From an uncultured Actinomyces sp. (GTDB lineage: Bacteria; Actinomycetota; Actinomycetes; Actinomycetales; Actinomycetaceae), in NCBI GenBank assembly GCA_902373545.1, contig CABKMZ010000003.1, positions 1 to 64,000 on the forward strand: a DNA stretch of 64,000 nt. Direction: 5' to 3'. A program made the position numbers and the translations under genes. The notes under the pieces are model-generated. The model ran no database searches and was not told where the DNA came from. It saw nothing but the letters and a program-made list of their open reading frames with translations. Numbering within the stretch: position 1 is the first letter of the stretch; every line of letters begins with the position of its first letter. Below are positions 5,024 through 41,860 of the stretch, in pieces.

Positions 5024-5035
5024 TTCCCCCACAAC

Positions 5036-5703: not shown

Positions 5704-5772
5704 GTAACTAGTCAACTGGGACGGGTGTACGCCGAGCTCGGCGGGTCAGCTGCCCCTGAAACAAGGAGAGAC

Positions 5773-8322: not shown

Positions 8323-8351
8323 TTGTCAAGTAACGCTCACTCTGATAGATT
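8323..8351 (+). promoter_or_regulatory. Promoter of the first FN3/kinase module
   Basis: TTGTCA at 8323-8328 and TAGATT at 8346-8351 are separated by exactly 17 bp, a good sigma-70-like pair. The predicted leader is about 70 nt, with a GAGAGAGGG ribosome site before the ATG at 8428. It begins directly after the clpC terminator. Confidence 0.6.
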
Positions 8352-8427
8352 TTCATTAACTATGGGCGCCTTGCGAAGTCGTGTCACACTATTTGCGAGG
8401 CATTGTCGATTGATCGAGAGAGGGTCT

Positions 8428-11400
8428 ATGAACACTCGTGCGCGCCGAAAGCTGACCAGCGCGAGACGACGCCTACCGGCGCTCGTCCTCGTGCTTGTCG
8501 TCGTTGCGCTCTGTGTCGCGGGTGTCATCTATAAGGGTGCCGAAGTCACGCAAGTGAACGTCAACGATGGCGGAATTTGGGTGACAAATAAGTCCAAACA
8601 GCTCGTTGGGCACCTGGACTACGAGGCGCGCATCCTTGACGGCGCGCTGCGCACCGAGGCTACCAACTTCGACGTCGGGCAGGCCGCCGAAACCGTCACT
8701 GTGTCCGATCTAACCTCGCTTACTGTTGCCCCGGTCAATGTTACTCAGGTCGCTCTGGGATCCCCCACGGCGCTGCCCAGTGGCTCGGTTGCGATGCAGG
8801 GCGGAGACGTCCTCGGTGTCCTGAATGCGGCGGATGGCACACTGTGGACCACCTCCGCGCTTAGCCCGAGCCCGACGAACCTATCTGACAATGCCGCCGT
8901 GGCCTCGAACATGGGCGCGAGCGCGTTTGTCACCGGTATGGACGGGACGGTCTACGCACTGTCCGGATCCGGTTCCCTAACGACTGTTAAGCGACAGGGT
9001 GCCGTCGATCAAGCGAAGACCTCACGGATCGACGGCATCCCCGAGGGTGCCCAGCTGTCCTTGACGGTTGTCGGCGACCAGGTCGTCGCCCTCGACTCCT
9101 CCTCCAACACCCTCTTCCTGCCCGGCGGCAGGACGCTCAACCTCAGCGCCGCAGGCGTGGAGGAGGGCGGCGTCCTCCAGCAGGCCGGTCCCAAGGCCGA
9201 TTCCGTGCTCCTGGCCACGGCCTCGTCCCTCGTGAAGGTTCCCCTGAAGGGCTCCGCCCCCGCGATCACCCCCGCGGCCGAGGGCGCCCCCAGCGGCACG
9301 CCCGCCCAGCCCGTTCGTCACGAGGGCTGCTCCTACGGCGCGTGGATGGGCTCGGGCGCGTACGTGCGCTCGTGCGACGACCCCGCCAACAACAAGCAGA
9401 TGGTCGTTGACACGCTGACGAGCGCCCGCGAGGTCGTCTTCCGCACGAACCGCAAGGCCATCGTCCTCAACGACGTCGCCCAGGGCAGCGTGTGGCTGCC
9501 CGACGCGAACATGGTCCTCATGGACAACTGGGAAGAGGTCGAGAACCAGCTCGAGCAGTCCGAGGATCAGAAGGACAACCCCGAGCTCACCAACGAAATC
9601 GCCGACCCCGAGCAGCGCGAGGAGAACACGCCGCCCGAGGCCGTGGATGACGAATTCGGTATCCGCCCGGGACGCTCGACGATCCTGCCCGTCCTGGACA
9701 ACGACTCCGACATTGACGGCGACGTGCTGACGGCGAAGCCGACGACCCAGCCCGGGTGGGGGGTCGTGTCCGTCGCGCGTTCGGGCCGCGCCCTACAGAT
9801 TTCGGATGTGAGCGCGGATCAAACGGGTTCGACGTCCTTCTCCTACGATGCCTCGGACGGGAGTGCGACCGCCTCCGCCCGGGTGCAGGTGACGATCCAT
9901 CCCTACGGGCAGAACGAGGCCCCCGCGCAGCTGCGCGCGTCCTCGGTCAAGATCGGCGCCGGCGCGCAGATTCAGTACCAGGCGCTATCCGACTGGCGCG
10001 ACCCCGACGGTGACCCGATCTACTTGAAGAACGCGGAGGCCCCCGAGGGCCTGAGCGTGTCCTTCATGGAGGATGGTTCGCTGACGATTAACGAGGAGGG
10101 CGGCGCGGCCGGCCCGAAGACCGTCGTTCTGACCGTCGCTGACGATCAGGGCGGCGAGACGCGCGGCGAGCTCATCGTCAACGTCCAGGAGGCGGGCAAC
10201 CTGCCGCCCACGGCGAACGGCGACCTGTTCCAGGCTCACCCGGGCCAAAACGTCACGCTTGACCCGCTCAAGAACGACACGGACCCCAACGGCGACCCGC
10301 TGACGCTGGCCGCGGTGTCCGGCGCGCCCTCGGGCGCCTCGATCACGCCGGATCTGGAGCGCGGGACCATCGATTTCATGGCCTCGTCGCCGGGCTCGTA
10401 CTCCTTTGCCTACACGGTGTCCGATGGCACCGCGACGACGCTGGGCATCGTGCGCGTCGAGGTCATCGAGCCGAACGCCGCGCCTCCCGTCGCCGAGAAC
10501 GACACGGCCGTCCTGCCGCAGGGAGGGTCCGTGCTGGTCGCGCCGCTGACCAACGACTTCGACCCGATGGGTGGCGTCCTGGCGATCACGTCGATTGACT
10601 CCACGGCCGTCCCCGGCCTCGAGGTTGCGCTTATCGACCGCCACCTCCTGCGCGTGACCGCGCCCTCCGGCCTGGACAAGACCGTCTCCTTCTCCTACAC
10701 GATCTCCAACGGTCAGGGCAGCGCGAGCGCCGAGGTGACCGTTATTCCCGGCGCCTCGGATCGCACCGACCTGCCGCCGATCCTCAAGCCGGACCGCGCG
10801 AAGGTCCGCGTGGGCGACGTGGGCACGGTCTCCGTCCTGGCGAACGACCGTTCCCCGGCTGGCCTGAACCTTCAGGTGGAGTCGACCCTCGAATACGACC
10901 GAACCAACGCGCTGGGCACGCCTTTCGTGACGGGTAACCAGGTCCGTCTCGAGGCCGGAAACACTCCCGGCGTGATGGAGGTCACCTACTCGGTCATCGA
11001 TTCGGCCGGCAACCGGGCCTCGAGCACGGTTACCTTCGAGATCCTGGCCGCCTCGGACTCCAACCAGGCGCCGCGCCCGCGCGACATCACCGCCTGGGCC
11101 ACGGCCGGCCAGAGCGTGCGCATCCCCGTCCCGCTCGACGGCATCGACCCGGACGGCGATTCGGTGGTCCTGCGCAGCCTCGAAACCTCGCCGCAGAAGG
11201 GCAGCGCGACCGCGCATGCCACGTGGATCGAGTACACGCCTAACGCTGCGGCGTCCGGGACCGATACCTTCACCTACACGGTCGAGGACCGCCAGGGCGC
11301 CCGTGCCTCGGGCCACATCCGAGTGGCCGTGACCGCGGCTCCTTCGCTCAACCAGAATCCGGTGGCCGTGCCCGACACGGTCCTGACGCGCCCCGACCGC

Positions 11401-14400
11401 ATGGTGACCGTCAACGTCCTGTCGAATGACCTTGACCCGGACGGTGATTCGCTGACCCTTGAGAAGGACAGCCTGGAGACGGCCACGCCCGCGCTGGATC
11501 CCCAGGTGCGTTCGGGCACGACCGTGCAGGTGCACACGCCCGCGCAGGCCGGTACCTACCTCGTGTCCTACACGGTGAGCGACGGGCGCGGCGGGGTCGC
11601 GCGCGGCACCCTGACGGTCTACGTCCAGGATGACGCGCCCCTCAAGGCCCCCATCGCCCGCGATGATTTCGTGGGCTACGACGAGTTGCCGTCCGACGGT
11701 TCCGCCGTGGTCGTTAACGTCTTGGATAACGACGAGGACCCCGACGGCAGCGTCGACGAGCTGACCGTCAGCACCTCCGATGCTGGCGTGACCGTCAGCG
11801 GTTCCACCCTGCTTATCCCCGTCAGCGACGCGACGCGCCTGGTCGTCTACACGATCAAGGATCGCGACGACCTGACGAACTCGGCTGTCGTGCGCGTGCC
11901 CGGTCGTGATTCGACCGCGCCCTTCCTGAGCTCGGCGAACCTGCCGATCGAGATGGACGCGGGTACTTCGCGCACGATCAACCTGTCGGATTACGTCATC
12001 ACGCGCGCCGGGCGCACCCCGCGCCTCGTGGAGGGCTCGACCCCGGTTGGTCAGGATGGCCTCGACTCGGTCGTCGCCGACTCCGACACGCAGCTGACCC
12101 TGACCGCGAACGCCGCGTTCGGCGGAAACTCCGCGTTCCTCATCCAGGTCGCGGACGGCGATTCTTCCGACTCGGGCGCCCTGTCCGCCTCCCTGTCGCT
12201 GCCCGTGCGCATCAAGCCCACGGTGAACCAGCCGCCGACCTTCACCCCGACGCCCATCCGCGTCGAGGCCGGGGCCGAGGCCGTGGTGCAGAACCTTGCG
12301 CTCGCCGTGCGCGATCCCGAGGGCGTGGACACCTCCACCTTCACCTACTCGATGGACTCCGCGCCGAGCGGTATCTCGGCGTCCCTGTCCGGCGCATCGC
12401 TGTCGGTGTCGGCCGCCGAGGGCACCGCGCAGGGCCCGGCCGGTTCAATCGCCGTGAGCGTCACCGACGAGGAGGGCAACACCGTCAGCGCGCAGATCCC
12501 CGTCGAGGTCGTCGCGTCGGTCAAGCCTCCCATCCAGGTTCCCGCCTACACGCTCAACGGCAAGGTGGGCGACACGGTGAGCATCGACGTGGCCTCCGCT
12601 GCGACCAACCCCTTCCCGGAGGCGCCGCTCACCCTTGAGGGCGCGACCCTGTCGTCGGGCGAGGCGACCGTCACCTCGGCGGGCACGACCGTGTCCATCA
12701 CGCCCACCGCGACCGGGACGATCACGGTCGGCTTCAAGGTCAATGACAAGATGGCTGATCCCTCGCGTGCCGTCCAGAGCACGATCACGGTCACGGTCAC
12801 GGATAAGCCGGCCGTTCCGACGGGCGTGGGGGCCGAGGCCGTGGGCCTGACGGGCGCTCGCGTGTCCTTCAACGCGCCCACAGCGAACGGCTCGCCCATC
12901 ACGGGATACCGCGTCTACGACCAGAATGGACGCCTGGTCGCCACGTGTGCGAGCACCGTGTGCGAGGTGACCGGCCTGACCACCGGCGAGTCGTACTCCT
13001 TCACGGTCAGCGCGGTCAACGCTGAGGGAGAATCTGGGAAGTCGGCGGCCTCCAACACCATCTCGCTGTCCGGCAGGCCCGATGCTCCCAGCGGCGTCAC
13101 CGCGACCCCCGGAGACGGAAAGATCGCGGTATCGTGGAACGCAGCTGCGGGCAACGGTTCTCCCATCACCAGCTACAGGGTGGTCGGCTCGGTCACCGGT
13201 GGTAGCGCGGTCACGTGTAGCACCGGAGGAGCCACCGCGTGCACGCTCAGTGGTTTGACGAATGGTAAGACGTACACGATCACGGTCACGGCTGTGAACG
13301 CCAGGGGTGAGTCGGATCCCTCGACCCCCGTGTCGGAAACGCCGAAGGCCGAGCGCCGCGGACCCGATCAGCCGGTTATCACGAGCGCCAGCGCGGCCCA
13401 GCAGCGCGACGGTAACGCCGCTCTGGCGACCATCACCTGGTCCCTGGGTAGCTCCGGCAGCGCCGGATGGGGCGAGACGATCGTCTCCGTCAATGGCGTC
13501 ACAAAGAACGTCACGGGCGGAACCAACACCACCCAGATGACCGTTCCCTACGGCGTGGCCCTCACCGTGTACGTGACCGTCAGTAACGCGAACGGTGACA
13601 CGGCGACCTCTCCTGGCTACGTCATTCCGGCGGTCGTCCACGAGGATCCCACTCCTCCCAAGACGATTCCGGTGGCTCCCGATGCGCCCAACGTGCGCAC
13701 GCCCATCAACAATGAGTTGGGCAAGCTGAGCGTCTATGGCGCGAAGGTCAAGGAAGGTAACGGCTTCAAGGCCGCCGACCTGACCCTGTTCTACGCGGAT
13801 AGCGCCAGCGGGTGCACCACGGGCGCGAACCAAGTGGGTCTGGAGGAGTTCAATATCGGTCCTCTCACGCCCGGAACCACGATGACCTACTACTTCTGCC
13901 AGCGTGGCAAGAAGGACGACGGATCCTACGTGTGGGGCCCGACCGTGTCGGCCTCCGGTGTCGTCGGCAACGGCCAGCGCGACGGTGGCGGCGGCAACCA
14001 GCCGGAGCCTCCGCAGCCGGATCCGGGCAATGACACGATCCCGAACTTCACGGTTGATGCCGATCCGCACATCAACAGTGCGACCATCTCGTGGACCCCT
14101 CCTGCAGGCGTTTCCCTCAAGCAGACAACCATCTGGATCGAGGGCCTGGAGGACTCGACGAGGCAGAGGTTCACGGGCCCGATGACGCAGGTCACCATGT
14201 CCCCACTGAAGCCCGTGCACGAGTACACGGTTGTCGTGGATGTGGAAAACAACGCCGGCGCCCACCGGATCGTCAAAAAAACGTTCACGACAGGCGAGTC
14301 GGTGGAGAATATCAATCCTGTCTTCACTGGGAAGACCACGTGCCCGAACGGGCAGGAATGTGGCTCGATGACGCTGACGGCCACGCGCGCCGCGCAGTTC

Positions 14401-14568
14401 CAACCGGGTAAGACACTCGTCTGCACGGTGTCGACCGGACGACCTGCCCAGGACACGGAGTTCCGCTTCTCGCAGGGCACGCCGAGTATACCGGGTATCC
14501 TGACGGAGGCGATTACCGCCCGAGAGCTCAATGCGCGGCAGGTCGTGAAGAGCTGCCGAGGCGAATAA
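8428..14568 (+). CDS. Giant membrane-anchored Ig-like/FN3 repeat protein, copy 1
   Basis: A 2046-residue surface protein. A basic N-terminus and one membrane segment (about residues 15-34) anchor it, with the rest outside. Residues about 40-380 look like a beta-propeller-type domain starting with NDGGIWV and containing GCSYGAW with a second Cys 16 residues after the first. From about residue 404 come at least seven Ig/cadherin-like repeats marked NDxDxDGD, then FN3 domains at about 1460-1640, and a C-terminal domain with four Cys. There is no LPXTG. The open frame extends 105 bp upstream, but ATG 8428 has the GAGAGAGGG ribosome site. It corresponds to the fn3 gene of the bifidobacterial PFNA cluster; its ligand here is unknown. 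Confidence 0.85.
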   Translation: MNTRARRKLTSARRRLPALVLVLVVVALCVAGVIYKGAEVTQVNVNDGGIWVTNKSKQLVGHLDYEARILDGALRTEATNFDVGQAAETVTVSDLTSLTVAPVNVTQVALGSPTALPSGSVAMQGGDVLGVLNAADGTLWTTSALSPSPTNLSDNAAVASNMGASAFVTGMDGTVYALSGSGSLTTVKRQGAVDQAKTSRIDGIPEGAQLSLTVVGDQVVALDSSSNTLFLPGGRTLNLSAAGVEEGGVLQQAGPKADSVLLATASSLVKVPLKGSAPAITPAAEGAPSGTPAQPVRHEGCSYGAWMGSGAYVRSCDDPANNKQMVVDTLTSAREVVFRTNRKAIVLNDVAQGSVWLPDANMVLMDNWEEVENQLEQSEDQKDNPELTNEIADPEQREENTPPEAVDDEFGIRPGRSTILPVLDNDSDIDGDVLTAKPTTQPGWGVVSVARSGRALQISDVSADQTGSTSFSYDASDGSATASARVQVTIHPYGQNEAPAQLRASSVKIGAGAQIQYQALSDWRDPDGDPIYLKNAEAPEGLSVSFMEDGSLTINEEGGAAGPKTVVLTVADDQGGETRGELIVNVQEAGNLPPTANGDLFQAHPGQNVTLDPLKNDTDPNGDPLTLAAVSGAPSGASITPDLERGTIDFMASSPGSYSFAYTVSDGTATTLGIVRVEVIEPNAAPPVAENDTAVLPQGGSVLVAPLTNDFDPMGGVLAITSIDSTAVPGLEVALIDRHLLRVTAPSGLDKTVSFSYTISNGQGSASAEVTVIPGASDRTDLPPILKPDRAKVRVGDVGTVSVLANDRSPAGLNLQVESTLEYDRTNALGTPFVTGNQVRLEAGNTPGVMEVTYSVIDSAGNRASSTVTFEILAASDSNQAPRPRDITAWATAGQSVRIPVPLDGIDPDGDSVVLRSLETSPQKGSATAHATWIEYTPNAAASGTDTFTYTVEDRQGARASGHIRVAVTAAPSLNQNPVAVPDTVLTRPDRMVTVNVLSNDLDPDGDSLTLEKDSLETATPALDPQVRSGTTVQVHTPAQAGTYLVSYTVSDGRGGVARGTLTVYVQDDAPLKAPIARDDFVGYDELPSDGSAVVVNVLDNDEDPDGSVDELTVSTSDAGVTVSGSTLLIPVSDATRLVVYTIKDRDDLTNSAVVRVPGRDSTAPFLSSANLPIEMDAGTSRTINLSDYVITRAGRTPRLVEGSTPVGQDGLDSVVADSDTQLTLTANAAFGGNSAFLIQVADGDSSDSGALSASLSLPVRIKPTVNQPPTFTPTPIRVEAGAEAVVQNLALAVRDPEGVDTSTFTYSMDSAPSGISASLSGASLSVSAAEGTAQGPAGSIAVSVTDEEGNTVSAQIPVEVVASVKPPIQVPAYTLNGKVGDTVSIDVASAATNPFPEAPLTLEGATLSSGEATVTSAGTTVSITPTATGTITVGFKVNDKMADPSRAVQSTITVTVTDKPAVPTGVGAEAVGLTGARVSFNAPTANGSPITGYRVYDQNGRLVATCASTVCEVTGLTTGESYSFTVSAVNAEGESGKSAASNTISLSGRPDAPSGVTATPGDGKIAVSWNAAAGNGSPITSYRVVGSVTGGSAVTCSTGGATACTLSGLTNGKTYTITVTAVNARGESDPSTPVSETPKAERRGPDQPVITSASAAQQRDGNAALATITWSLGSSGSAGWGETIVSVNGVTKNVTGGTNTTQMTVPYGVALTVYVTVSNANGDTATSPGYVIPAVVHEDPTPPKTIPVAPDAPNVRTPINNELGKLSVYGAKVKEGNGFKAADLTLFYADSASGCTTGANQVGLEEFNIGPLTPGTTMTYYFCQRGKKDDGSYVWGPTVSASGVVGNGQRDGGGGNQPEPPQPDPGNDTIPNFTVDADPHINSATISWTPPAGVSLKQTTIWIEGLEDSTRQRFTGPMTQVTMSPLKPVHEYTVVVDVENNAGAHRIVKKTFTTGESVENINPVFTGKTTCPNGQECGSMTLTATRAAQFQPGKTLVCTVSTGRPAQDTEFRFSQGTPSIPGILTEAITARELNARQVVKSCRGE

Positions 14569-14619
14569 AAGACAAGACTTTCATCCACTAAGAGCAACGA
14601 GAGAGACGTAGGAACACTC

Positions 14620-15585
14620 ATGACCCTTTCCATCGAAGACGCAACCAGGTTTGCCCAGGTCTTCAAGGGCCTCGTCGACGGCGTGTCCGTGGCGGTGCTC
14701 GACAAGCGCCAGGCGGTGCGCCTGGCTCTGACCACGATGTTCGCCGGCGGCCACCTCCTGCTCGAAGACGCTCCCGGTACCGGAAAGACGGCGCTGGCGC
14801 GCGCGATCAGCGCGACCATTGACGGCACGCACTCGCGTATCCAGTTCACCCCGGACCTGCTGCCTTCGGATATCACGGGCGTCAACATGTTCAACCAGAA
14901 GACGGGCGAGTGGGTTTTCCACGCCGGCCCGGTCTTCGCGGAGATCGTCCTGGCCGACGAAATCAACCGTGCGTCGCCCAAGACGCAGTCCGCCCTCCTG
15001 GAGGTCATGGAAGAGGCCCAGGTGACGGTCGACGGCGTGCGCCGCCCCGCGCCCCAGCCCTTCATGGTCATCGCGACCCAGAACCCCGTCGAGCAGGCCG
15101 GCACCTACCCGCTGCCCGAGGCCCAGCTGGACCGCTTCCTCATGAAGACCTCGATCGGCTACCCCTCGCGCGCCGCCATGATCGACGTGCTGGACGGCTC
15201 GGCCGCGCCCGACCGCTCCAAGAACCTGCGTCCCCTCGTGTCCGGCCAGGACATCGTCGCCTGGTCGGCCCTGGCCTCGGCGAACCACACGGACCGCGCG
15301 GTCCTGGACTACGTGGCCGCGCTGGCCGAGGCCACCCGCGACGACGAGTCCTCGCTGCTGGGCGTGTCCACCCGTGGCGCGATCGGCATGGTCCGCTGCG
15401 CCCGCGTGTGGGCGGCCGCGCAGGGCCGTAACTTCGTCCTGCCCGACGACATCAAGGCCCTGGCGGTGCCCGTGTGGGCACACCGCGTGATCGTCGACCC
15501 CGATGCTGCGTTCTCCGGCGCGACCGCCGAGGGCGTCATTCAGCGTGCCCTGACGTCGGTGCCCGCCCCGGCGGTGGGCGCGTAA
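14620..15585 (+). CDS. MoxR-family AAA ATPase
   Basis: A 321-residue cytosolic AAA+ ATPase of the MoxR group. Walker A is APGTGKT with Lys56; Walker B is LADEIN with Asp113 and Glu114; a lid domain forms the C-terminal third. MoxR proteins are thought to act as chaperones for proteins encoded beside them, and DUF58 plus transglutaminase-fold neighbours are the standard partners. It lies 51 nt after the giant FN3 gene and 20 nt before the DUF58 gene, in one operon. The second copy of the module has no equivalent, so this ATPase may serve both. Confidence 0.92.
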   Translation: MTLSIEDATRFAQVFKGLVDGVSVAVLDKRQAVRLALTTMFAGGHLLLEDAPGTGKTALARAISATIDGTHSRIQFTPDLLPSDITGVNMFNQKTGEWVFHAGPVFAEIVLADEINRASPKTQSALLEVMEEAQVTVDGVRRPAPQPFMVIATQNPVEQAGTYPLPEAQLDRFLMKTSIGYPSRAAMIDVLDGSAAPDRSKNLRPLVSGQDIVAWSALASANHTDRAVLDYVAALAEATRDDESSLLGVSTRGAIGMVRCARVWAAAQGRNFVLPDDIKALAVPVWAHRVIVDPDAAFSGATAEGVIQRALTSVPAPAVGA

Positions 15586-15605
15586 CGCGCCGACCGGACG
15601 ACGTG

Positions 15606-21036: not shown

Positions 21037-21096
21037 CCAACCGGGTGGATCTTTCCGGCGCGTAGCACGTCACGCTTTCAGCCTATGCTTATGCGG

Positions 21097-21102
21097 TAGG
21101 CT
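21097..21102 (+). promoter_or_regulatory. Possible -10 box TAGGCT for the second module
   Basis: TAGGCT lies in the 89-nt gap between kinase 1 and the second giant FN3 gene, 23 nt before the earliest GTG start at 21126. It would let module 2 be transcribed separately from module 1. No convincing -35 is seen. Confidence 0.4.
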
Positions 21103-21125
21103 GGTCGAAAACCTGTACCTCCAAG

Positions 21126-27209: not shown

Positions 27210-27244
27210 TAGTCACGCCGAGGAGAAACGATGGGAGGAACGTC

Positions 27245-32639: not shown

Positions 32640-32668
32640 CGGGTCGAGCAGGCCTTGGCCGGCCCGCG

Positions 32669-34039: not shown

Positions 34040-35538
34040 GAGCTGCCCCCACCGGCGACCTCCCGGCGGGCGGCTCGGTTCGACAGCTCAACGCCGGTCG
34101 GGATCAGCTCCAGCCATTGCTCGGGGACCCGTTGGATGAAATCCGCGTTCCAGCCAAGCCGTCGGAGGGTATCGTTTTGGTCCTCGCCGAGGGAGTGGCG
34201 CTGGCCCAGGTCGGAGACAAAGGTCAGCGGAGCCTCGGTCTGCCCGTTGCTGGATCCTTGCGCGAGCGTGCCGAAACCGGAGGCCACCAGGGCGGCCCCG
34301 GGCGAGAAGGAGGTCGGGACGTCGGCCGTGGGGTCCAGGTTCCACGAGGCCCGACGAGCACTGTCCTGCGACATCACGGTCAGGGTCGCGTGGGCCGACC
34401 CGGAAGGCTGCTTGCTGTCAGCGTTGCCCTGAGCGCGCTCCAGGGTCGCGCAGGGAACCTGGTCGCGCACGCGAATGACCTTGGGGTCGTCGCTGTCGGC
34501 TGCCGTCGAGTCTGAGTCGAAGGGATACAGGCCCTCCAGCTGCGACCACGCGTCGGGGAAGGGCGAGGGCTCCACGTCGGTCTTGGCGACCGTAAAGGAC
34601 TGCGCGAACGCGCTGGGCTGGAGGGTCAAAGCGCCCTCGATCGTGCCGTTGGGCGCAGCGGTCGTGCCCTCGTACAGGGCGGCGGCCAGCGGCGACAGCG
34701 GGTAGGCGTGCCCGGTGGCCACCAGCACGTAGTAGGTGGTGCTACCCGTATCCTTCACGGCGATGACGCTGCCCTGGCGCAGTGAGGCGTTGTTCTGGGG
34801 GGACGAGGCCATGGCGCCACCCGGTTCTGCCACACCCCATGTGGTCAGGTCGGGACCGTCGTCGAAGAGAGACACCCAGTTGGGGTCCACGGAGATGGGG
34901 GAGGTGCCGATGCGCAGGCGCGCGACGATGTCGCTGGCGCTGCCGGGGATACGGAACTTGGATGATCCTGCGACGATGAAGGAGTCGGAACTCCCGGAGG
35001 GTGTGACGTGGGCGCTGCGGGCGCTGTGTAGGCCGTTGCTCGACAGGAGCGAGGAGTTGCCGATCCACGTGAAGGTGTGTTCGGAGATGGCGCAGCTGGT
35101 CCAGTCGGCGGTCATGTGGTCGGCGCTGGAGGGCACGTCCTCGGGCGCGTCGGGGATGCCGAGCGCCTGCCCCTGGCTGTATTTGCTCAGGTCGGAGGTG
35201 GAGATTTTCATCGTGCCGGTCGAAGAATCGCCGAGGAGGCGCGCGGAGGTCCGGTTGGTGATCGGGTGCCACTGTCCGTCTTGGAGGTAGTAGCGGGCGC
35301 CGGAGCTGGAGACGATCGCCAGGCCGAAGGATTGTGAAGAGTCGGCGGTCGAGTAGAGGAATCGCAGGCCGACGCTGACCAGCAGCATGACGAGTGCGAG
35401 TGAGACGCCGACGATGAAGGGGCGGGTCGGGGCTTGCGGCTCGACCTCTTTGCCGTCGGGCGAGCCCGCGACGAAGGAGGTGATCAGGCGACGCCTGTTG
35501 TAGCGCTGGGCTTCGAGGATGTCCTTATTTGATGCCAT
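34036..35538 (-). CDS. eccB: Type VII secretion protein EccB
   Basis: A 500-residue core component of the ESX inner-membrane complex. The short cytosolic N-terminus has the family pattern (AQRYNRRRLITSFVAG), followed by one membrane segment at about residues 40-62 and a large extracytoplasmic domain rich in Ser/Thr. The open frame extends 660 bp upstream inside eccD, but ATG 35538 is the correct start: it overlaps the eccD stop (TAATG) and gives the family N-terminus. Two Cys (TSCAIS and VPCATL) could form the periplasmic disulfide known in EccB proteins. The stop overlaps the mycosin start. Confidence 0.9.
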   Translation of the reverse strand: MASNKDILEAQRYNRRRLITSFVAGSPDGKEVEPQAPTRPFIVGVSLALVMLLVSVGLRFLYSTADSSQSFGLAIVSSSGARYYLQDGQWHPITNRTSARLLGDSSTGTMKISTSDLSKYSQGQALGIPDAPEDVPSSADHMTADWTSCAISEHTFTWIGNSSLLSSNGLHSARSAHVTPSGSSDSFIVAGSSKFRIPGSASDIVARLRIGTSPISVDPNWVSLFDDGPDLTTWGVAEPGGAMASSPQNNASLRQGSVIAVKDTGSTTYYVLVATGHAYPLSPLAAALYEGTTAAPNGTIEGALTLQPSAFAQSFTVAKTDVEPSPFPDAWSQLEGLYPFDSDSTAADSDDPKVIRVRDQVPCATLERAQGNADSKQPSGSAHATLTVMSQDSARRASWNLDPTADVPTSFSPGAALVASGFGTLAQGSSNGQTEAPLTFVSDLGQRHSLGEDQNDTLRRLGWNADFIQRVPEQWLELIPTGVELSNRAARREVAGGGSS

Positions 35539-36893
35539 TACATTCCCCACATGTAGAGGGCGAAGGGCGGGATGGCGACGATGATGAGGGTGGCGAAGGT
35601 ATCGGCGGTGCGCGAGAGCCACGGCCGAACCTTCGGGGTCACGACGTTCATGGCAAGCACGAGAAGGCTTCCGGCCAGGGAAGTGACGAGCACGAGCAGC
35701 GCGGTCGTGGGCGCCAGGAGCGCGGCTGTGAAGGCTGCCCACGAGAGGATGGCCATGCCGGAGATGACGCCGATGAGGACTTCGATGCGCGAGCGGATCG
35801 AGCGGGTTGAGAGCATGAGGGCCGTGCCGATAAGCGCGCAGAGGATGACGCCTTCCATGGACGAGGCCAGGATCGGGGCCAGGATGATCAGGCTCAGGCA
35901 GGTGCCGAGCCGGATAGACACGGACAGGGCGACACCCATCGAGACGGATTTGCCGATCTGGCGGGGGTCGATGTGGGCGGTTGCGGAGGGGCCGGTTACG
36001 CGCACGGGGACCGAGGCCATGGCGAGCCACGGGATAGCCAGGCAGATCAGGAGAAGGAGCGCGCTGAGCAGTGCTGTCACGCGGGCGGCGCTCATGCCGA
36101 GGGCCCCCGAAAAGAGGCTGAAGGAACTCAACGTGACACCGACGATGGCGGGGCACAGGCCGCTTGCACGCAGCTTCCCAGGAAGGACGAGGTGACACAG
36201 GGCGCCGATGGTGAGGGCGGCTCCCGCGGCAAGGGCGCCGGAGGTGGTCCAGGGGCCGGCCGGTAGGGCGCCGGCGCTCGCGCAGGCGAGGAGGACGGGG
36301 GCGCAGCCAGCCAGGACGGCGACGGAGGAGTGCTCGAGCCTGCGCGAGACGACGGCAGCGGTGCCGGTGAGGAGGAGGGCACCGACGATGCCGATAATCG
36401 GATAGGCGATGAGACGGACCCCGTCGAAGGAGGAATCAGCGCCCAGGAGTGACGTCCCATGGGTCGAAGCGGAGACGAGGAGGGCGCTGGCCAGGCCGAC
36501 GAAGACAGCGGATGCGTAGACCGAGAGCTGTAGGGAGTCGAGGGGGGTCCACGGGTCGACGGTGGTTTCGACGGCACTTCCAACGGCCTCGACGAGGTCG
36601 TCAAAGCGCTGGTCTTCTCGGCCCTGCCCGGCGCGCTCGAGCGTCAGGGCTGCCCCTGCGCGCACGCCCTGGTCGCGCAGACACAGGGACTGGTCGAGGA
36701 CCTGTCCTGAGGATGTTGAGACGGTGAACCCGGCGGACGCGCCGTACACGTCCATGCGTCCGAGGCTGCGCAAAATCGTGGGAATAAGCTCCGCCAGCGG
36801 AGACAACTGAGGAACCGACAGATCGACCGTTTGTTCATCAAAGGTGACTGTCAGTGGAGTGAGTGCAGCGGCGGTATGCGTGCTCTGGGCCAT
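35538..36893 (-). CDS. eccD: Type VII secretion integral membrane protein EccD
   Basis: A 451-residue protein with a ubiquitin-like N-terminal domain (about residues 10-90, YukD-like) and about eleven membrane segments, the defining EccD plan. EccD forms the membrane vestibule of the ESX complex. The start at 36893 is preceded by GGAGGA. It is the first gene of eccD-eccB-mycP and diverges from the WXG100 gene pair across a 203-bp gap. No EccC ATPase or EccE is encoded anywhere in the window. Confidence 0.9.
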   Translation of the reverse strand: MAQSTHTAAALTPLTVTFDEQTVDLSVPQLSPLAELIPTILRSLGRMDVYGASAGFTVSTSSGQVLDQSLCLRDQGVRAGAALTLERAGQGREDQRFDDLVEAVGSAVETTVDPWTPLDSLQLSVYASAVFVGLASALLVSASTHGTSLLGADSSFDGVRLIAYPIIGIVGALLLTGTAAVVSRRLEHSSVAVLAGCAPVLLACASAGALPAGPWTTSGALAAGAALTIGALCHLVLPGKLRASGLCPAIVGVTLSSFSLFSGALGMSAARVTALLSALLLLICLAIPWLAMASVPVRVTGPSATAHIDPRQIGKSVSMGVALSVSIRLGTCLSLIILAPILASSMEGVILCALIGTALMLSTRSIRSRIEVLIGVISGMAILSWAAFTAALLAPTTALLVLVTSLAGSLLVLAMNVVTPKVRPWLSRTADTFATLIIVAIPPFALYMWGM

Positions 36894-37028
36894 CGTCTCC
36901 TCCGGGTTGTTGTGTTCCTAGTCTGCCCGTTTGTGGTGTCTGGGGCAAGCTGTCATACCTCTGCAAGACGGTCGAACTTTGTCAAAAACCTGTCTCAAGT
37001 TCATGGACTTTTGCACGTATGTGTGGTT

Positions 37029-37034
37029 AGACTG
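37029..37034 (+). promoter_or_regulatory. Possible -10 box TAGACT for the WXG100 operon
   Basis: TAGACT lies 62 nt before the first WXG100 start, in the divergent gap with eccD. A weak TGGACT sits 19 bp upstream. The GGGAGGAA ribosome site lies just before the start codon. Confidence 0.4.
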
Positions 37035-37096
37035 GGCTTGTCAGAAGGGCGGTTCCGCCGTTGGAGCGCTCTTTCACAGATGATCTGGGAGGAATA

Positions 37097-37408
37097 ATGA
37101 CCGATCAGAAGGCTCTTGATGGTGCGCTACTCAAGGGAGCGACAACCATCGAGCAGTCGCAGAGCGACATTGAATCGACGCTGAAGAACCTGGAATCGAA
37201 GCTGTCGGGTATCGGCAGTTCGTGGCAGGGCGAAGCGGCTGTCGCATTCCAGAACGTCATGGCGGAGTGGCAGACCGAGGCCGGCAAGGTTACGTCGGCT
37301 CTCACCGAGCTGCACACCGCGCTGCGTTCGTCCGACTCTGCGTCGCAGGCTAACGAGGCCGAGCAGTCGGCCGCGCTGAACAAGTACAAAGTCCGCTACG
37401 GTCTGTAG
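37097..37408 (+). CDS. WXG100-family (ESAT-6-like) protein 1
   Basis: A 103-residue all-helical protein without a signal peptide. The WXG turn is W43-Q-G, between two amphipathic helices, which is the WXG100 plan. These proteins form helical hairpin dimers secreted by type VII systems. The frame is open further upstream, but ATG 37097 has a strong GGGAGGAA site and puts the WXG motif at the usual place. A second WXG100 gene follows after 25 nt, so the pair probably forms a heterodimer. Confidence 0.92.
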   Translation: MTDQKALDGALLKGATTIEQSQSDIESTLKNLESKLSGIGSSWQGEAAVAFQNVMAEWQTEAGKVTSALTELHTALRSSDSASQANEAEQSAALNKYKVRYGL

Positions 37409-37433
37409 TCGAGACTAGGAAAGGGATACTGTC

Positions 37434-37724
37434 ATGGCTGACATTCTTTACAACTACGGCCAGATCGATCAGGCTGTCGCCGACATGCGGGCCGGTGTCA
37501 ACAAACTGAATACGAAGCTGGAGGACATGGACTCCGAGCTCAAGCAGCTGCAGAGTTCGTGGGATGGCCAGGCGAAGCGCGCCTACGACGCGTCCAAGGC
37601 AAAATGGACCGAGGGTATGGACGGCATCGTCGAAATCCTCACCGGTGTCGCCGCTGCGGTTGCGGAAGCCCGCCAGTCTGCTCAGGCTACCGATGCTCGT
37701 AACGCTGATGGCTTCGGCTCCTGA
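37434..37724 (+). CDS. WXG100-family (ESAT-6-like) protein 2
   Basis: A 96-residue helical protein with the WXG turn at W43-D-G (SSWDGQAKRAY). The length and motif position match protein 1, as expected of a co-expressed EsxA/EsxB-type pair. A GAAAGGG site precedes the ATG. The tail is Ala/Asp-rich and I do not see a clear YxxxD/E export signal. A strong hairpin 13 nt after the stop closes the transcript, so these small proteins are likely made at higher level than the Gly-rich gene beyond it. Confidence 0.93.
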   Translation: MADILYNYGQIDQAVADMRAGVNKLNTKLEDMDSELKQLQSSWDGQAKRAYDASKAKWTEGMDGIVEILTGVAAAVAEARQSAQATDARNADGFGS

Positions 37725-37736
37725 TTCCGCCTGATT

Positions 37737-37774
37737 GCCGCGGGGAGGGGACCGAGGGGTCCCCTCCCCGCGGC
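37737..37774 (+). terminator. Terminator hairpin after the WXG100 pair
   Basis: A perfect 17-bp stem (37737-37753 with 37758-37774) closes a 4-nt loop. It separates the WXG100 pair from the Gly-rich gene at 37840. Confidence 0.85.
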
Positions 37775-37839
37775 GATTGTCTATCGGGGGCCGGTGCTCC
37801 CATTGTTTGTGTATTGCTGACTGCAAGTGAGGTTGCGTC

Positions 37840-39387
37840 GTGGTTGAATCGCCGAAGTATGAGCGCTTGAAGGCAGTCATCGGATTGACTGCGAGGCCCC
37901 TGGCATCCGAGGACTATGAGGAAGATGGGCGTGCGAGTACGGCTCGTACGGAGGTTGAGGACGCGAAGGGAACCTCCGAAGACTTTGTGGTTGACCTGAG
38001 CGTCGGCGAGTCGCAGACCAAGACTGGTGCAGACAGTTGGCTATCGTCGTTCATCGAATCCGCGAAAACACACCAAGGAAAGATCACGACGGCTAAGGCA
38101 CACCATCTGGCGGTCCGTGAGTCGATGTCGACTGCGGTGACCGACGGTGAGCAGTTGAGTCCTGTCTTGCTGAGCGAGTCGGATGTTGCAGCCAGTCAGC
38201 AAAATCCGCCCCTGAGGCTTACGAGCGCCGATGGTAAGACGGTCGAGTACACGGAACCCACGGCTTACTTGACGGCTCTGGAACAGCAGAAGAACGACAA
38301 GCGGGAAGCTGAAGCGCAGACGATTCTCGATAAGCTCAATCAGGAAGCCGATTCACACGTCAGCGAATTCCAACATCAAAAGGACGACTACGTTCCTGAC
38401 GCGTGGAAGCCGCGGGGCGAAGGCGATGCGGGATCAGCCCCCAGCCCGAGTCCGGCGTCTTCTGGTGGGAGTCGTGGTCTTGTTCCGACGGTTCGTAGTG
38501 ACACGGGTGCGGGTGGTGGTGAGTGGACGTCTCCTGCTCCGGGGGAGCTTGGGAGTGCGTCGAATCCGATTAGTGATCCGGCTGATTTGGCTCGTTATGA
38601 TTTGACGACGACGCCGGTGAATCAGCGGATGACGCCGAATGGTCCTGTGGGTGGGCATATGCCTGCTGATGTGCTGAATGTGAATGATCCGGCGTGGCGT
38701 GCTGTTCCTTCTGCCGCGGGTGGTGGTGCGCGTATTGCTGGTGGTGTGTTGGTGGCTGGTTCTGCTGCTGGTGCTGCTGGTGCGGCGTTGTCTTATGGTG
38801 GTGGTTTTGCTGGGATTGGTGGGCTTGCTTCGGGTGCGTCTGGTTCTGCGTTGCGTGCTGTTGCTCCTGCCGGTGGTGTGTTGCGTCCTTCTGCGCTTCC
38901 TGGTGGGGGTGTAGCTGGGGCTGTTGGTGGTGCTGGCCGCGGCGGTGGTGTTGGTGTGGTTGGTCGTGGTGGTGTGGCGCCGGTGGGTTCTGGCGGTGCT
39001 GGTTCTGCTGGTGGTCGTGGTGCGACTGGTGGTGTCGCTGGTCGTGGTGGTGTGAGCGCTGCGGGTCGTGGCGCTTCCGGTGCTGGTGCGGTTGGTCGTG
39101 GTGGTGTGGCGCCGGTGGGTTCTGGCGCCTCTGGTACTGCTGGCGGTCGTGGCGGTGTCGCTGGCCGTGGCGGTGTCGCTGGTGGTCGTGGTGCTTCCGG
39201 TGCTGGTGCGGTTGGTCGTGGCGGTGTTGGGGATCGTCGTGAGAAGAAGGGGCAGGTGCGGCGTCGTGCGTATGATGTGGTGCGTGTGGATGCCTTGGAG
39301 GAGCGTGGTGCTCAGATGATGGGTGGTGCTGCTGGTAGTGCTGATCAGCTCAAGCCGATTGCTCGTGATGCTGATGCTGACTGGTGA
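37840..39387 (+). CDS. Gly-rich repeat protein, candidate type VII substrate
   Basis: A 515-residue protein without a signal peptide. Residues 1-200 are hydrophilic and largely helical; 200-280 are Ser/Pro/Gly-rich; 290-345 form a hydrophobic Ala/Gly stretch; about 345-465 are repeats of GRGGVAPVGSG and GRGASGAGAV type; the tail is charged and ends in Trp. The repeat half uses GGT and GCT codons heavily, unlike neighbouring genes, which prefer GGC and GCC. The GTG start has AAGTGAGG upstream. Position next to the WXG100 pair and the helix-plus-Gly-rich plan recall large ESX substrates, but I recognise no named family. Confidence 0.6.
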   Translation: MVESPKYERLKAVIGLTARPLASEDYEEDGRASTARTEVEDAKGTSEDFVVDLSVGESQTKTGADSWLSSFIESAKTHQGKITTAKAHHLAVRESMSTAVTDGEQLSPVLLSESDVAASQQNPPLRLTSADGKTVEYTEPTAYLTALEQQKNDKREAEAQTILDKLNQEADSHVSEFQHQKDDYVPDAWKPRGEGDAGSAPSPSPASSGGSRGLVPTVRSDTGAGGGEWTSPAPGELGSASNPISDPADLARYDLTTTPVNQRMTPNGPVGGHMPADVLNVNDPAWRAVPSAAGGGARIAGGVLVAGSAAGAAGAALSYGGGFAGIGGLASGASGSALRAVAPAGGVLRPSALPGGGVAGAVGGAGRGGGVGVVGRGGVAPVGSGGAGSAGGRGATGGVAGRGGVSAAGRGASGAGAVGRGGVAPVGSGASGTAGGRGGVAGRGGVAGGRGASGAGAVGRGGVGDRREKKGQVRRRAYDVVRVDALEERGAQMMGGAAGSADQLKPIARDADADW

Positions 39388-39408
39388 GTGGTGGTTGGTT
39401 CAGTGATG

Positions 39409-39443
39409 GCGGGGGCCGCACCCTTGATGGGTGCGGCCCCCGC
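39409..39443. terminator. Terminator between convergent genes
   Basis: A perfect 15-bp GC stem (39409-39423 with 39429-39443) with loop TTGAT, followed by TTGTT. It lies between the Gly-rich gene and the convergent secreted-protein gene and could serve both strands. Confidence 0.85.
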
Positions 39444-39454
39444 TTGTTGGTGTG

Positions 39455-40393
39455 TTAGCTTGTGCGGCGCCGTGCCCAGGTGATTCCCACCGCGGCGGCT
39501 AGGAGGAGGAGTGCGGCTCCCACGCCCACGGCGATGATGAGGCCGCGCGAAGAGGTAGACGAGGACTCGGAAGTGGCGTCCGCGCTGGTGTCCGAGGCTG
39601 GCTCGTCGGCCTGTGTGGGGGTGATGGTGAAGGGGTTGGCGGGCACTGTCAGGTCGGTGAAGGGCCCGACGGTCGCGTGGTCTCCGTCGTAAAATGCTTG
39701 TTCGGCTGTGCCTGTCATGAGGGGGTCGTCGGTGGTGGGGATCGTCGCCCCTTCTTCGGTGTTCCACTTGCAGGTGGTCATGTGGACGTTGCCCGATAGG
39801 GGGGCGTCGAGTTTGGTGTAGGAGGGGTCGGCATTGCATTGGGTGTTCACGATCGCCGAGAACCTGTATTCAAAATCCGTGAAGTGCACGGTTTCGAAGG
39901 ATGAGGCGATCTGGTGGAGGTAGACCATGGGGGCGCGCGCCGTGATCGTTCCGTCCTCATCGAGGGAGTAGAAGGCGTGGCGCGCATCGTTGGCATAATG
40001 GGCCGTGAGGACGCAGATACCCATGTCGTAGTCGACTGTGCTGTGGTAGTTGGGGGCGCTTCCCGACCAGAACGTGTTCGCCAGCATCGTGCACTCATCG
40101 AGCGTGATCTTTGGACTGGGATACTTGCTGCGCAGCCTGATTTGCAGTTCGCTGACGTGGACTCGCTCTCCCACTCCCATGTCATTGCTGGCACTAGGCG
40201 CAAGGCTCGCCGCCATCTTGATCTCGTGGCCCGGCAAGAGCGGCAGCTCAGGAGCTTGGCTGACGGGGCTCGGGGGCACAGGAACGGGAGTGTCCGCGGC
40301 ATCACTGGGCGAGGAAACCCCAACCACACAACACGCGGCCGCAGCCACGCACGCCAGCGCGCGTCTCATGTGTGTGCGTCGCGTTGTCGCCAT
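39455..40393 (-). CDS. Secreted, C-terminally anchored protein, paralog 1
   Basis: A 312-residue protein with a signal peptide (about residues 1-33, with cleavage plausible near SDA-ADT), a Pro-rich spacer, an extracellular domain with several Cys, a Ser/Thr/Ala-rich stalk, and a C-terminal membrane segment (about 286-306) ending ARRRTS. AGGAGGATCA precedes the ATG. It is nearly identical to the gene just upstream (40428-41360), from the signal peptide's hydrophobic core to the end. I recognise no family. It shares an operon with a WXG-like helical protein beside the ESX genes, so a role at the same envelope machinery is plausible. Confidence 0.72.
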   Translation of the reverse strand: MATTRRTHMRRALACVAAAACCVVGVSSPSDAADTPVPVPPSPVSQAPELPLLPGHEIKMAASLAPSASNDMGVGERVHVSELQIRLRSKYPSPKITLDECTMLANTFWSGSAPNYHSTVDYDMGICVLTAHYANDARHAFYSLDEDGTITARAPMVYLHQIASSFETVHFTDFEYRFSAIVNTQCNADPSYTKLDAPLSGNVHMTTCKWNTEEGATIPTTDDPLMTGTAEQAFYDGDHATVGPFTDLTVPANPFTITPTQADEPASDTSADATSESSSTSSRGLIIAVGVGAALLLLAAAVGITWARRRTS

Positions 40394-40427
40394 TGATCCT
40401 CCTGTTGTGGTCAGCTCAAGGGATGGG

Positions 40428-41360
40428 TCAGCTTGTGCGGCGCCGCGCCCAGGTGATTCCCACCGCGGCGGCCAGGAGGAGGAGCGCGGCGCCCACGCCC
40501 ACTGCGATGACGAGGCCGCGCGAAGAAGCAGACGAGGACTCGGAAGCGGCGTCCGCGCTGGTGCCCGAGGCGGGCTCGTCGGCCTGTGTGGGGGTGATGG
40601 TGAAGGGGTTGGCGGGCACTGTCAGGTCAGTGAAGGGCCCGACGGTCGCGTGGTCTCCGTCGTAAAATGCTTGTTCGGCGGTGCCTGTCATGAGGGGGTC
40701 GTCGGTGGTGGGGATGGTGGCGCCCTTTTCGGTGTTCCACGTGCAGGTGGTCAAGTGGACGTTGCCCGATAGGGGGGCGTCGAGTTTGGTGTAGGAGGGG
40801 TCGGCGTTGCATTGGGTGTTCACGATCGCCGAGAACCAGTAGTCGAATCGTGTGAAGTGTACGGTTTCGAAGGATGAGGCGATCTGGTGGAGGTAGACCA
40901 TGGGGGCGCGCGCCGTGATCGTTCCGTCCTCATCGAGGGAGTAGAAGGCGTGGCGCGCATCGTTGGCATAATGGGCCGTGAGGACGCAGATACCCATGTC
41001 GTAGTCGACTGTGCTGTGGTAGTTGGGGGCGCTTCCCGACCAGAACGTGTTCGCCAGCATCGTGCACTCATCGAGCGTGATCTTTGGACTGGGATACTTG
41101 CTGCGCAGCCTGATTTGCAGTTCGCTGACGTGGACTCGCTCTCCCACTCCCATGTCATTGCTGGCACTAGGCGCAAGGCTCGCCGCCATCTTGATCTCGT
41201 GGCCCGGCAAGAGCGGCAGCTCAGGAGCTTGGCTGACGGGGCTCGGGGGCACAGGAACGGGAGTGTCCGCGGCATCACTGGGCGAGGAAACCCCAACCAC
41301 ACAACACGCAGCCGCAGCCACGCACGCCAGCGCGCGAAACAGGGCGGTCCTTGTCATCAT
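40428..41360 (-). CDS. Secreted, C-terminally anchored protein, paralog 2
   Basis: A 310-residue near copy of paralog 1. Protein differences cluster in the first ten residues, in a short central segment (TRFDYWF against TDFEYRF) and at scattered positions in the stalk. I set the start at ATG 41360 (MMTRTALF) because a GAGGAGGAG site lies just upstream; the open frame reaches 41396. It lies 34 bp upstream of paralog 1, with an offset of 973 bp between matching points. This is a recent tandem duplication, probably kept uniform by recombination. Confidence 0.72.
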   Translation of the reverse strand: MMTRTALFRALACVAAAACCVVGVSSPSDAADTPVPVPPSPVSQAPELPLLPGHEIKMAASLAPSASNDMGVGERVHVSELQIRLRSKYPSPKITLDECTMLANTFWSGSAPNYHSTVDYDMGICVLTAHYANDARHAFYSLDEDGTITARAPMVYLHQIASSFETVHFTRFDYWFSAIVNTQCNADPSYTKLDAPLSGNVHLTTCTWNTEKGATIPTTDDPLMTGTAEQAFYDGDHATVGPFTDLTVPANPFTITPTQADEPASGTSADAASESSSASSRGLVIAVGVGAALLLLAAAVGITWARRRTS

Positions 41361-41407
41361 CTCTCCTCCTCGATGTCGGCGGCAACCCTCATCCACGGTG
41401 ACCCTCT

Positions 41408-41860
41408 TTAGAGCATGGGCATGTTTCTGTGCGCGGAGATGTCATCTCCTGGGTTGTCTTTCCAGTGCTTCTTCATCGCCTCTGACTCATAGACCGAGTC
41501 GATTTTACTAATCTCAGCATCGAGACCAGCGATCGCCGCGTCTAGCTCACTCGCCGAGACCATGTCCGTATTCGAGATCTTCTCGAGGGCTACACTCAGG
41601 TTGTCGGCGACGCTCTGGGCGTTTTTCGCCATTTGCAGCAGGGCAGTGTGCTCGGCGTCGAGGTACTTCTTGTACGTGCTGCCAAAGGCTGCGGGGCCGG
41701 GCAGCGTGCCCCACTTGGCCTCGGTTTGGTGCTCCGACGCCCGCATGATATCCTCCGCGGCGCTGTTGAGCTGGTCGACGATACCGTCCCCTTCGCGTGT
41801 AATGAGGTCGATCCAGCCTTTCCACTGCGCCCGCGTAATCTCGAGGCGGTTGTCCTCCAT
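41408..41860 (-). CDS. WXG-like helical protein of the type VII locus
   Basis: A 150-residue, mostly helical protein without a signal peptide. A helix with RAQWKGW near the N-terminus and a turn KWGTLPGPAAFG at about residues 50-61 divide it into a helical hairpin resembling WXG100/ESX-type proteins but longer. The C-terminus is charged. The ATG is preceded by AAGGAGA. It is first in a minus-strand operon with two secreted paralogs, next to the ESX genes. Membership of the ESX/WXG superfamily is an inference from shape and position; I do not recognise the exact family. Confidence 0.55.
   Translation of the reverse strand: MEDNRLEITRAQWKGWIDLITREGDGIVDQLNSAAEDIMRASEHQTEAKWGTLPGPAAFGSTYKKYLDAEHTALLQMAKNAQSVADNLSVALEKISNTDMVSASELDAAIAGLDAEISKIDSVYESEAMKKHWKDNPGDDISAHRNMPML

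Follow-up and report, generated by a model that had tools for sequence, protein, structure and literature searches.

A doubled FN3, DUF58, transglutaminase-fold and kinase module beside a divergent type VII secretion locus in an uncultured Actinomyces

Why should genes that resemble an adhesion and host-sensing cluster of Bifidobacterium stand, in two copies, directly beside genes for type VII secretion? The question is raised by 64,000 nucleotides from an uncultured Actinomyces sp. (contig CABKMZ010000003.1, positions 1 to 64,000), a stretch that we call the window. From position 8323 to 32639 it carries two successive modules, each encoding a giant protein with Ig-like and FN3 domains, a DUF58 protein, a transglutaminase-fold protein (tgm) and a Ser/Thr kinase; a MoxR gene is present in module 1 only. 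Genes of the ESX type of secretion follow, and the cluster ends at 41860. As described below, the linkage between module and ESX is conserved in a clade of mouth-type Actinomyces relatives, the window itself coming from an Actinomyces/Schaalia relative, and the two copies are old. Together these findings suggest that the module works with secretion machines and not alone.

Conservation of the linkage

A tgm was counted as being of this kind if it scored at least 900 bits with alignment A1, which holds the 2 window copies and 10 of the 120 proteins listed; the lowest accepted score was 921 and the next one was 608. Among 213 Actinomycetaceae genomes, 54 have eccB, 28 have this kind of tgm and 25 have both. 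Thus, eccB is present in 25 of the 28 genomes with this tgm versus 29 of the 185 without it (Fisher p=1e-14, uncorrected for relatedness). In all 23 genomes where the two genes share a contig they are at most 28 kb apart, 12 of them by less than 4 kb, one by 4.8 kb and 10 by 10-28 kb; G004 and G008, which have module and eccB on separate contigs, are omitted from this count. The gene order is also recurrent. A single module in the order fn3-moxR-duf58-tgm-pk, facing mycP-eccB-eccD and then a WXG100 pair, is present in S. cardiffensis (L002), in A. culturomici (L008), in S. vaccimaxillae (L013) and in Schaalia sp. Q2122 (L019), all of them named genomes. Among 42 additional eccB neighbourhoods, several of them truncated at contig ends, 8 have a kinase that faces mycP. 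An earlier note on this DNA had suggested a search of other genomes for module and ESX genes within 50 kb of each other; adjacency peculiar to this one strain, which the note named as a refuting result, did not arise and is ruled out by the linkage in the other genomes.

In one genome (G103; L075 4300-12000) clpC adjoins mycP-eccB-eccD with no module match between them, as if a module had been lost.

Ig/FN3 repeat proteins are common adhesins, and the module could be an independent operon for surface adhesion and host sensing, as proposed for the Bifidobacterium cluster called PFNA, with ESX a chance neighbour in a zone of envelope genes. In the PFNA papers, the FN3 protein of B. longum is reported to bind TNF-alpha, the cluster is connected with adhesion and the kinase Pkb2 is reported to phosphorylate the MoxR protein (PMC8430577, PMC6803598). 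The independence of such an operon would also fit the three of 28 genomes (G011, G048 and G177) that have the tgm without eccB, as well as three S. odontolytica-type genomes in which copy 1 is far from eccB (see below). However, one would scarcely expect genes that adjoin by chance to remain within 28 kb of each other in all 23 assessable genomes while the gaps between them range from 3 to 27 kb. In addition, a related module adjoins a second type VII-like ATPase, and divergence is far greater in both copy 2 and ESX than in copy 1. We regard a separate adhesion operon as unlikely, although it is by no means negligible.

One old duplication and unequal divergence

The two modules are, by their sequences, paralogues: copy 1 and copy 2 are 46% identical in FN3, 57% in DUF58, 46% in tgm and 46% in the kinase. 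Trees of tgm, of FN3 and of four concatenated genes all place the duplication after the split from A. culturomici, S. cardiffensis and S. vaccimaxillae and before the parting of S. georgiae/P. hongkongensis, the S. odontolytica group and the window clade. Support by the Shimodaira-Hasegawa-like approximate likelihood ratio test (SH-aLRT) is 99-100 at the duplication nodes when the genes are concatenated; in the tgm tree, support for the copy-2 grouping is just 83/82. On these trees the doubling is one old event, and the question of when the copies split, which the earlier note had posed, is answered: before the lineages of S. odontolytica, S. georgiae and the window parted.

Two other accounts of the trees were rejected. 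A recent tandem duplication in the window strain does not agree with tgm copies 1 that are 70-82% identical across species and 46% identical to copy 2, and the trees concur. Long-branch attraction could have united the two copy-2 clades, but when each clade was omitted in turn the other attached at the unchanged node.

Ten of the 25 genomes have two copies. They are in tandem in A. bouchesdurhonensis, the nearest named record (L001; tgm_2 81% identical), and in genome G169 (L095, L080, L096); six others are S. odontolytica-type genomes, and in the last two the copies are split over contigs. In all six S. odontolytica-type genomes the copy near eccB is of the copy-2 type and lacks MoxR, and the other copy is 74-148 kb away from eccB; where this far copy was read (L003, L007 and L015), it is copy 1, linked to clpC. 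A single tgm match of this kind, of the copy-1 type, was found in S. georgiae, as in P. hongkongensis. The idea of one envelope system with two variants of the module, put forward in the earlier note, therefore survives in part: the link to ESX has been kept, but the copies are not alike, and copy 1 is remote from eccB in those three genomes.

The copies have also diverged to very different degrees. When the window is compared with HPA0247, identity is 98% for clpC and MoxR and 75-84% for the other copy 1 genes, versus 44-55% for the copy 2 genes; for mycP, eccB and eccD it is 40, 31 and 36%. For tgm alone, the values are 78% for copy 1 and 46% for copy 2. The tree paths between these two, as summed branches, are 0.33 for copy 1, 1.73 for copy 2 and about 3.1 for ESX. 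S. cardiffensis and S. vaccimaxillae, which have one module each, are separated by a module path of 0.48 and an ESX path of 0.39, and between S. georgiae and P. hongkongensis they are 0.09 and 0.22. The path lengths and identities mean that, in the window lineage, copy 2 and not copy 1 has diverged like ESX.

Such figures could also be explained if the copies had two different jobs. Copy 1, strongly conserved next to clpC, would be a housekeeping module for the cell wall or for stress, and copy 2 alone would have been recruited by ESX, or else copy 2 and ESX would have been swapped as a block in one lineage. The high identity of the copy 1 genes (75-98% with MoxR included) next to that of the copy 2 genes would be expected, as would the retention of copy 1 only in S. 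georgiae and P. hongkongensis. However, the single module of S. vaccimaxillae (L013) sits between clpC and ESX, and therefore the ancestor probably served both positions. A block swap, in turn, is opposed by the ESX tree (91/92) and the concatenated copy-2 tree (100), both of which place S. odontolytica together with the window clade, and by the unchanged attachment of each copy-2 clade when the other was omitted. We find a division into two jobs quite improbable.

A pseudo-transglutaminase and a predicted propeller

The tgm ectodomains were compared in alignment A3, built from both window copies plus 13 of the 19 named loci; these loci came from one scan of genome contigs. A further alignment, A2, holds the 2 window copies and 18 of the 19, with L003 excluded for stop codons in its stretch. 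None of the 15 ectodomains in A3 has a cysteine. The motif GDD[EQ]QY stands at the expected cysteine site in all 15 and in all 12 members of A1, one of which (P0011) has a single cysteine elsewhere within the counted stretch. We take this site to be the position of the catalytic cysteine of TgpA; the HMMER alignment begins one residue beyond it. The histidine site is Arg or Gln in six of the 15. Thus, unlike TgpA of Pseudomonas aeruginosa (6g49), the window-type tgm has Gly-Asp-Asp where the cysteine is expected and no ectodomain cysteine at all, and the Cys-His-Asp catalytic triad is absent.

The ectodomain is predicted by modelling to have the fold of the periplasmic domain of TgpA. Because it has no cysteine (15 of 15), the tgm is probably not an enzyme, and we would call it a cysteine-less pseudo-transglutaminase. 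The earlier description of a transglutaminase-fold protein is thus borne out by the model as to fold, but not as to the catalytic cysteine. In the FN3 protein a beta-propeller, a circular array of four-stranded blades, probably eight in number, is predicted just behind the membrane anchor. One known arrangement of similar parts, the MoxR-vWA-propeller ternary conflict system, is disfavored, as the window MoxR fits bpMoxR (E=2e-11) worse than AAA_3 (E=6e-62).

A distant form of the module

A. bouchesdurhonensis carries, in addition, a distant form of the module. Its genes encode, in this order, FN3, MoxR, tgm, PP2C, FHA and kinase proteins, an unknown product and an FHA-FtsK ATPase, together with small proteins that have no Pfam match. 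We examined 20 loci of this form, hand-picked and not random among the tgm matches listed (below 900 bits). An FHA-FtsK ATPase, including its FHA-bearing N-terminal part, is present within the 20 kb read in 11 of the 20, and in 10 of these 11 the genes for PP2C, FHA and kinase proteins lie between it and the module. Both FHA and FtsK domains were recognized by Pfam in one of these ATPases (L045), and FN3 matches lie at the edges of several of the stretches read. Neither eccB nor mycP was found in the 24 distant-form loci scanned.

This arrangement is reminiscent of T7SSd, a class of type VII secretion that includes a kinase as well as a giant Ig-like protein, the latter proposed to span the envelope as a conduit or to recognize the target (PMC11217815). 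The points of likeness with T7SSd are a kinase plus giant Ig-like envelope protein, a type VII ATPase and a WXG100 protein; an FHA-FtsK ATPase accompanied by kinase and giant Ig-like protein occurs in distant-form loci, not in the window. Unlike T7SSd, the window module accompanies EccB, EccD and MycP, which are outside the five core components given for T7SSd in the same text (PMC11217815).

Two observations concern the distant loci themselves. In L045, from 17472 onward, about 100 residues ahead of the FHA domain of the ATPase look ubiquitin-like by eye, with no Pfam match; T7SSd is said to have no ubiquitin-like part (PMC11217815). Most matched genes of the T7SSd-like locus are 93-100% identical between A. 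bouchesdurhonensis (L045/L046) and G169 (L120), where eccC is 89% identical, and this locus has possibly been transferred horizontally, and recently.

The missing ESX arm

The ESX set beside the modules was correctly recognized in the earlier note as far as EccB, EccD, the mycosin and the WXG100 pair are concerned, but it has no eccC in the window. In A. bouchesdurhonensis the EspC-like gene at the end of the cluster is followed by genes for an FHA protein, an EccD-like multi-spanning protein, EccC (1350 residues), PP2C and an unknown product, and the gene order past the EspC-like gene is identical in G169. The distance from eccC to eccB is about 9 kb in the former and 11 kb in the latter. In the 64-kb window, tblastn (E up to 1; for eccC with the A. 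bouchesdurhonensis protein as query) gave no match for eccC, the FHA protein or the second EccD-like protein, and the sole PP2C match had E=0.4, as expected by chance. Since eccC stands close by in both of the nearest genomes, what the window shows is an incomplete apparatus, and as both genomes keep the arm, the window strain has probably lost or moved it. A search for EccE found none in four relatives; no control genome gave a match either.

Database proteins 89, 87 and 86% identical to the EccC of A. bouchesdurhonensis exist. The 86% one stands for 849 sequences, which is near the 914 members of the sequence cluster that holds the window tgm, and this is a weak hint that the species may keep eccC elsewhere in its genome.

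The 497-residue EccD-like protein (so named by eye, with no Pfam family) and the FHA protein are encoded divergently from eccC in A. bouchesdurhonensis (L034 4184-6924), and the pair is more weakly matched in relatives L036, L037, L038 and L040-L042. We know of neither as a standard ESX part.

An incomplete set of genes might be the remnant of a decaying ESX, with the eccC arm gone and copy 2 diverging because it is no longer needed. The absence from 64 kb of all four genes that the two closest genomes have beyond their EspC-like gene would be accounted for. On the other side are the open reading frames, the catalytic motifs present wherever they were inspected, a comparable divergence in A. 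bouchesdurhonensis, which retains eccC, and the similar cluster sizes of 849 and 914, which hint weakly that eccC lies elsewhere. We consider decay very improbable.

An accessory assembly for type VII secretion

How, then, might the module serve? The reading that we prefer, with slightly less than even confidence, is that it is an accessory envelope and signaling assembly of type VII secretion, similar in its parts to PFNA. Four lines of evidence lead to it: the linkage and the recurrent gene order described above, the FHA-FtsK ATPase next to the distant form in 11 of the 20 picked loci, the divergence of copy 2, which is far greater than that of copy 1 and like that of ESX, and the precedent of T7SSd, in which a kinase occurs with a giant Ig-like protein (PMC11217815). 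From the neighborhood, the shared divergence and the second linkage we infer that the cluster probably works as a unit with secretion.

Any role in secretion and every physical contact in the following scheme is likewise what we infer. MoxR and the DUF58 protein would load or remodel the polytopic TgpA-fold protein, whose cysteine-less pseudo-transglutaminase domain would be a binding scaffold outside the membrane. This scaffold would hold the giant membrane-anchored FN3 protein, with the predicted propeller close to the membrane, while its roughly ten Ig/FN3 domains would span the cell wall and either guide ESX substrates outward or recognize a target. The kinase, which has an outer domain of its own, would switch the assembly via FHA and PP2C proteins, whose genes lie either next to eccC, in some relatives, or within the distant-form loci. 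Following the old tandem duplication, copy 1 has remained strongly conserved next to clpC and copy 2 has diverged along with the adjoining ESX.

Several findings weigh against an accessory role. The window itself has no eccC. This kind of tgm is absent from 29 of the 54 genomes with eccB, and ESX therefore does not include the module as a general component; these genomes, together with the three mentioned above that have the tgm without eccB, indicate that neither requires the other. The linkage may also reflect shared ancestry in one clade and not many independent events. Nine of the 20 picked distant-form loci show no such FHA-FtsK ATPase in the 20 kb that was read, and no PP2C gene was seen beside eccC in L039-L044 (six of nine relatives scanned). 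The ESX stem of S. georgiae/P. hongkongensis, with copy 1 only, is equally long (1.52), and therefore fast change of ESX does not need copy 2. Tight coupling is further opposed by duf58_2 and pk_2, which score slightly higher against copy 1 of HPA0247 than against its copy 2. Finally, the comparison of divergence includes few lineages and long branches, and the ESX tree bears the program's long-branch warning.

Relation to PFNA and other known systems

PFNA consists of pkb2, fn3, aaa-atp, duf58 and tgm, with prpC and fha in some species (PMC8430577, PMC6803598). Module 1 encodes all five of these protein kinds, and module 2 encodes four, without MoxR. In terms of the gene content described there, the likeness extends to the order MoxR-DUF58-tgm, a membrane kinase and two FN3 domains, and the PFNA-like content, the doubling and the single MoxR that the earlier note reported agree with gene content and paralogue identities. 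Unlike PFNA, the window module is doubled, stands beside eccB, eccD and mycP and has no internal prpC or fha; in the closest genomes the FHA and PP2C genes are outside the module, next to eccC. With T7SSa/ESX, the window shares EccB, EccD with a YukD domain, a mycosin-like protease and the WXG100 pair, and the nearest genomes add a full-length EccC. It differs in the absence of eccC and in the adjoining FN3 module, and its relatives differ in the additional FHA, EccD-like (by eye) and PP2C proteins.

The words MoxR, transglutaminase and fibronectin do not occur in the main text of Garrett, Higginson and Palmer 2024 (PMC11217815), and 'type VII secretion system' does not occur in the PFNA papers (PMC8430577, PMC6803598, PMC12607495, PMC10688814). 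Type VII loci have been reported in Bifidobacterium (PMC4965825), and eccB and eccC in Actinotignum schaalii (PMC5720513). No description of a link between the module and type VII secretion, nor of the doubled ESX-linked form, was found in the open-licence literature, which omits most subscription papers; to that extent the form is undescribed, as the earlier note had supposed.

It is conceivable, although we would sooner doubt it than accept it, that the set of FN3, MoxR, DUF58, pseudo-transglutaminase and kinase proteins is a general type VII accessory of Actinobacteria, present in at least two classes (EccB-type ESX and the T7SSd-like class with an FHA-ATPase), which would provide a path through the wall and a phospho-switch. 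If so, the Bifidobacterium PFNA, read and studied as a sensor of host cytokines and immunity, would represent the envelope part of a secretion system, with a cysteine-less scaffold in place of a true transglutaminase. In Actinomycetota, the route by which type VII substrates pass through the cell wall is unsettled, and the propeller-Ig-FN3 protein, MoxR/DUF58, the TgpA-fold scaffold and the kinase would be concrete candidates for this crossing.

Genes of the window

Open reading frames, translations and Pfam matches agree with the gene order, strands and coordinates first read from the window, including the two modules in a row, their 4-bp overlaps and the short gap before the ESX genes. The left neighbor of module 1, on the forward strand like both modules, is a clpC-type ATPase gene (5725..8241; Pfam Clp_N/AAA_2/ClpB_D2), which is 98-99% identical to its counterparts in A. 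bouchesdurhonensis, G169 and S. odontolytica-type loci.

Module 1 begins with fn3_1 (8323..14568), whose giant product has an N-terminal membrane segment (the single hydrophobic segment, 51-69), the propeller region, Big_9 Ig-like repeats (E=3e-88, 8 stretches) and two FN3 domains (E=7e-32, 2 stretches). The MoxR-type AAA+ ATPase gene (14620..15585; AAA_3, as above), the sole one for both modules, is 94-99% identical to those of A. bouchesdurhonensis, G169 and S. odontolytica-type genomes. The next three genes are chained by 4-bp overlaps (16829-16832 and 19504-19507): duf58_1 (15474..16832 with a mechanical start, the true one being probably near 15582; DUF58 E=3e-8), tgm_1 (16829..19507; Transglut_core E=5e-13), a polytopic membrane protein with a TgpA-like ectodomain that has no Cys and has Arg at the His site, and pk_1 (19504..21036; Pkinase E=8e-35), a Ser/Thr kinase with one hydrophobic segment, a C-terminal tail and the catalytic motifs VAIK, HRDIKPSN and DFG.

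Module 2 consists of fn3_2 (21126..27209), built like fn3_1 and with a beta-propeller predicted for residues 49-382, duf58_2 (27245..28510; DUF58 E=3e-9), tgm_2 (28507..31077), built like tgm_1 and with a modelled TgpA-like ectodomain that has Asp at the expected Cys site, and pk_2 (31074..32639; Pkinase E=9e-36), again a Ser/Thr kinase with one hydrophobic segment, a C-terminal tail and catalytic motifs; here the overlaps are at 28507-28510 and 31074-31077. The end of pk_2 at 32639 is separated by a 29-bp gap from the mycP stop at 32669 on the opposite strand, and the convergent mycP-eccB-eccD genes lie beyond.

On the reverse strand are mycP (32669..34039; Peptidase_S8 E=5e-26), a mycosin-like subtilase with a hydrophobic segment at its C-terminus and Asp, His and Ser motifs recognized by eye, eccB (34036..35541; EccB E=1e-50) and eccD (35538..36893; EccD E=5e-15), with a ubiquitin-like N-terminal domain (YukD E=2e-11). 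Their NCBIfam matches are below the equivalog cut-offs (TIGR03921, 197.8 bits versus 278.75; TIGR03919, 143.9 versus 154; TIGR03920, 83.6 versus 94.95), and so these are divergent members. The Pfam cut-offs are passed by EccB, EccD, the subtilase and both WXG100 proteins, and barely by the EspC-like protein. The WXG100 genes A (37097..37408; PF06013 E=3e-14) and B (37434..37724; PF06013 E=7e-16) are on the forward strand, as is the gene of a 515-residue candidate substrate with a Gly/Ala-rich C-terminal half and no Pfam family (37840..39387), which has a 57% identical counterpart at the equivalent position in A. bouchesdurhonensis. Two near-identical genes on the reverse strand, copy a (39455..40393) and copy b (40428..41396), encode exported-looking proteins of no Pfam family; copy a has hydrophobic ends, a C-terminal hydrophobic segment and a 44% identical relative in A. 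bouchesdurhonensis. The small EspC-like protein (41408..41860, reverse strand; T7SS_ESX_EspC E=3e-5, 25.0 bits, cut-off 23.5) closes the cluster, and TrkH comes next.

Other observations

The gene for the exported-looking protein multiplies within the ESX cluster, with two copies in the window, one in A. bouchesdurhonensis (L034 2549-3505) and three matches in G169 (L080 ~15200-17900). Rfam and tRNA scans of the window gave no match at the thresholds used. The modules of records 352_XCEL 'Xylanimonas cellulosilytica' (L004, L005) and 250_SKED 'Sanguibacter keddieii' (L011, L017) nest in the S. odontolytica group, and the titles of these records are probably wrong. An intergenic element of about 125 bp with inverted ends (TCGCACGTAATT...AATTACGTGCGA) is present in arrays of 2-3 copies, with spacings of 326, 228 and 218 bp, at 1-146, 327-472, 5023-5706 and 52032-52685 in the window, one array being immediately 5' of clpC. 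The element is common to A. bouchesdurhonensis, G169 and S. odontolytica-type L007 and L015, and it resembles a miniature mobile or palindromic repeat.

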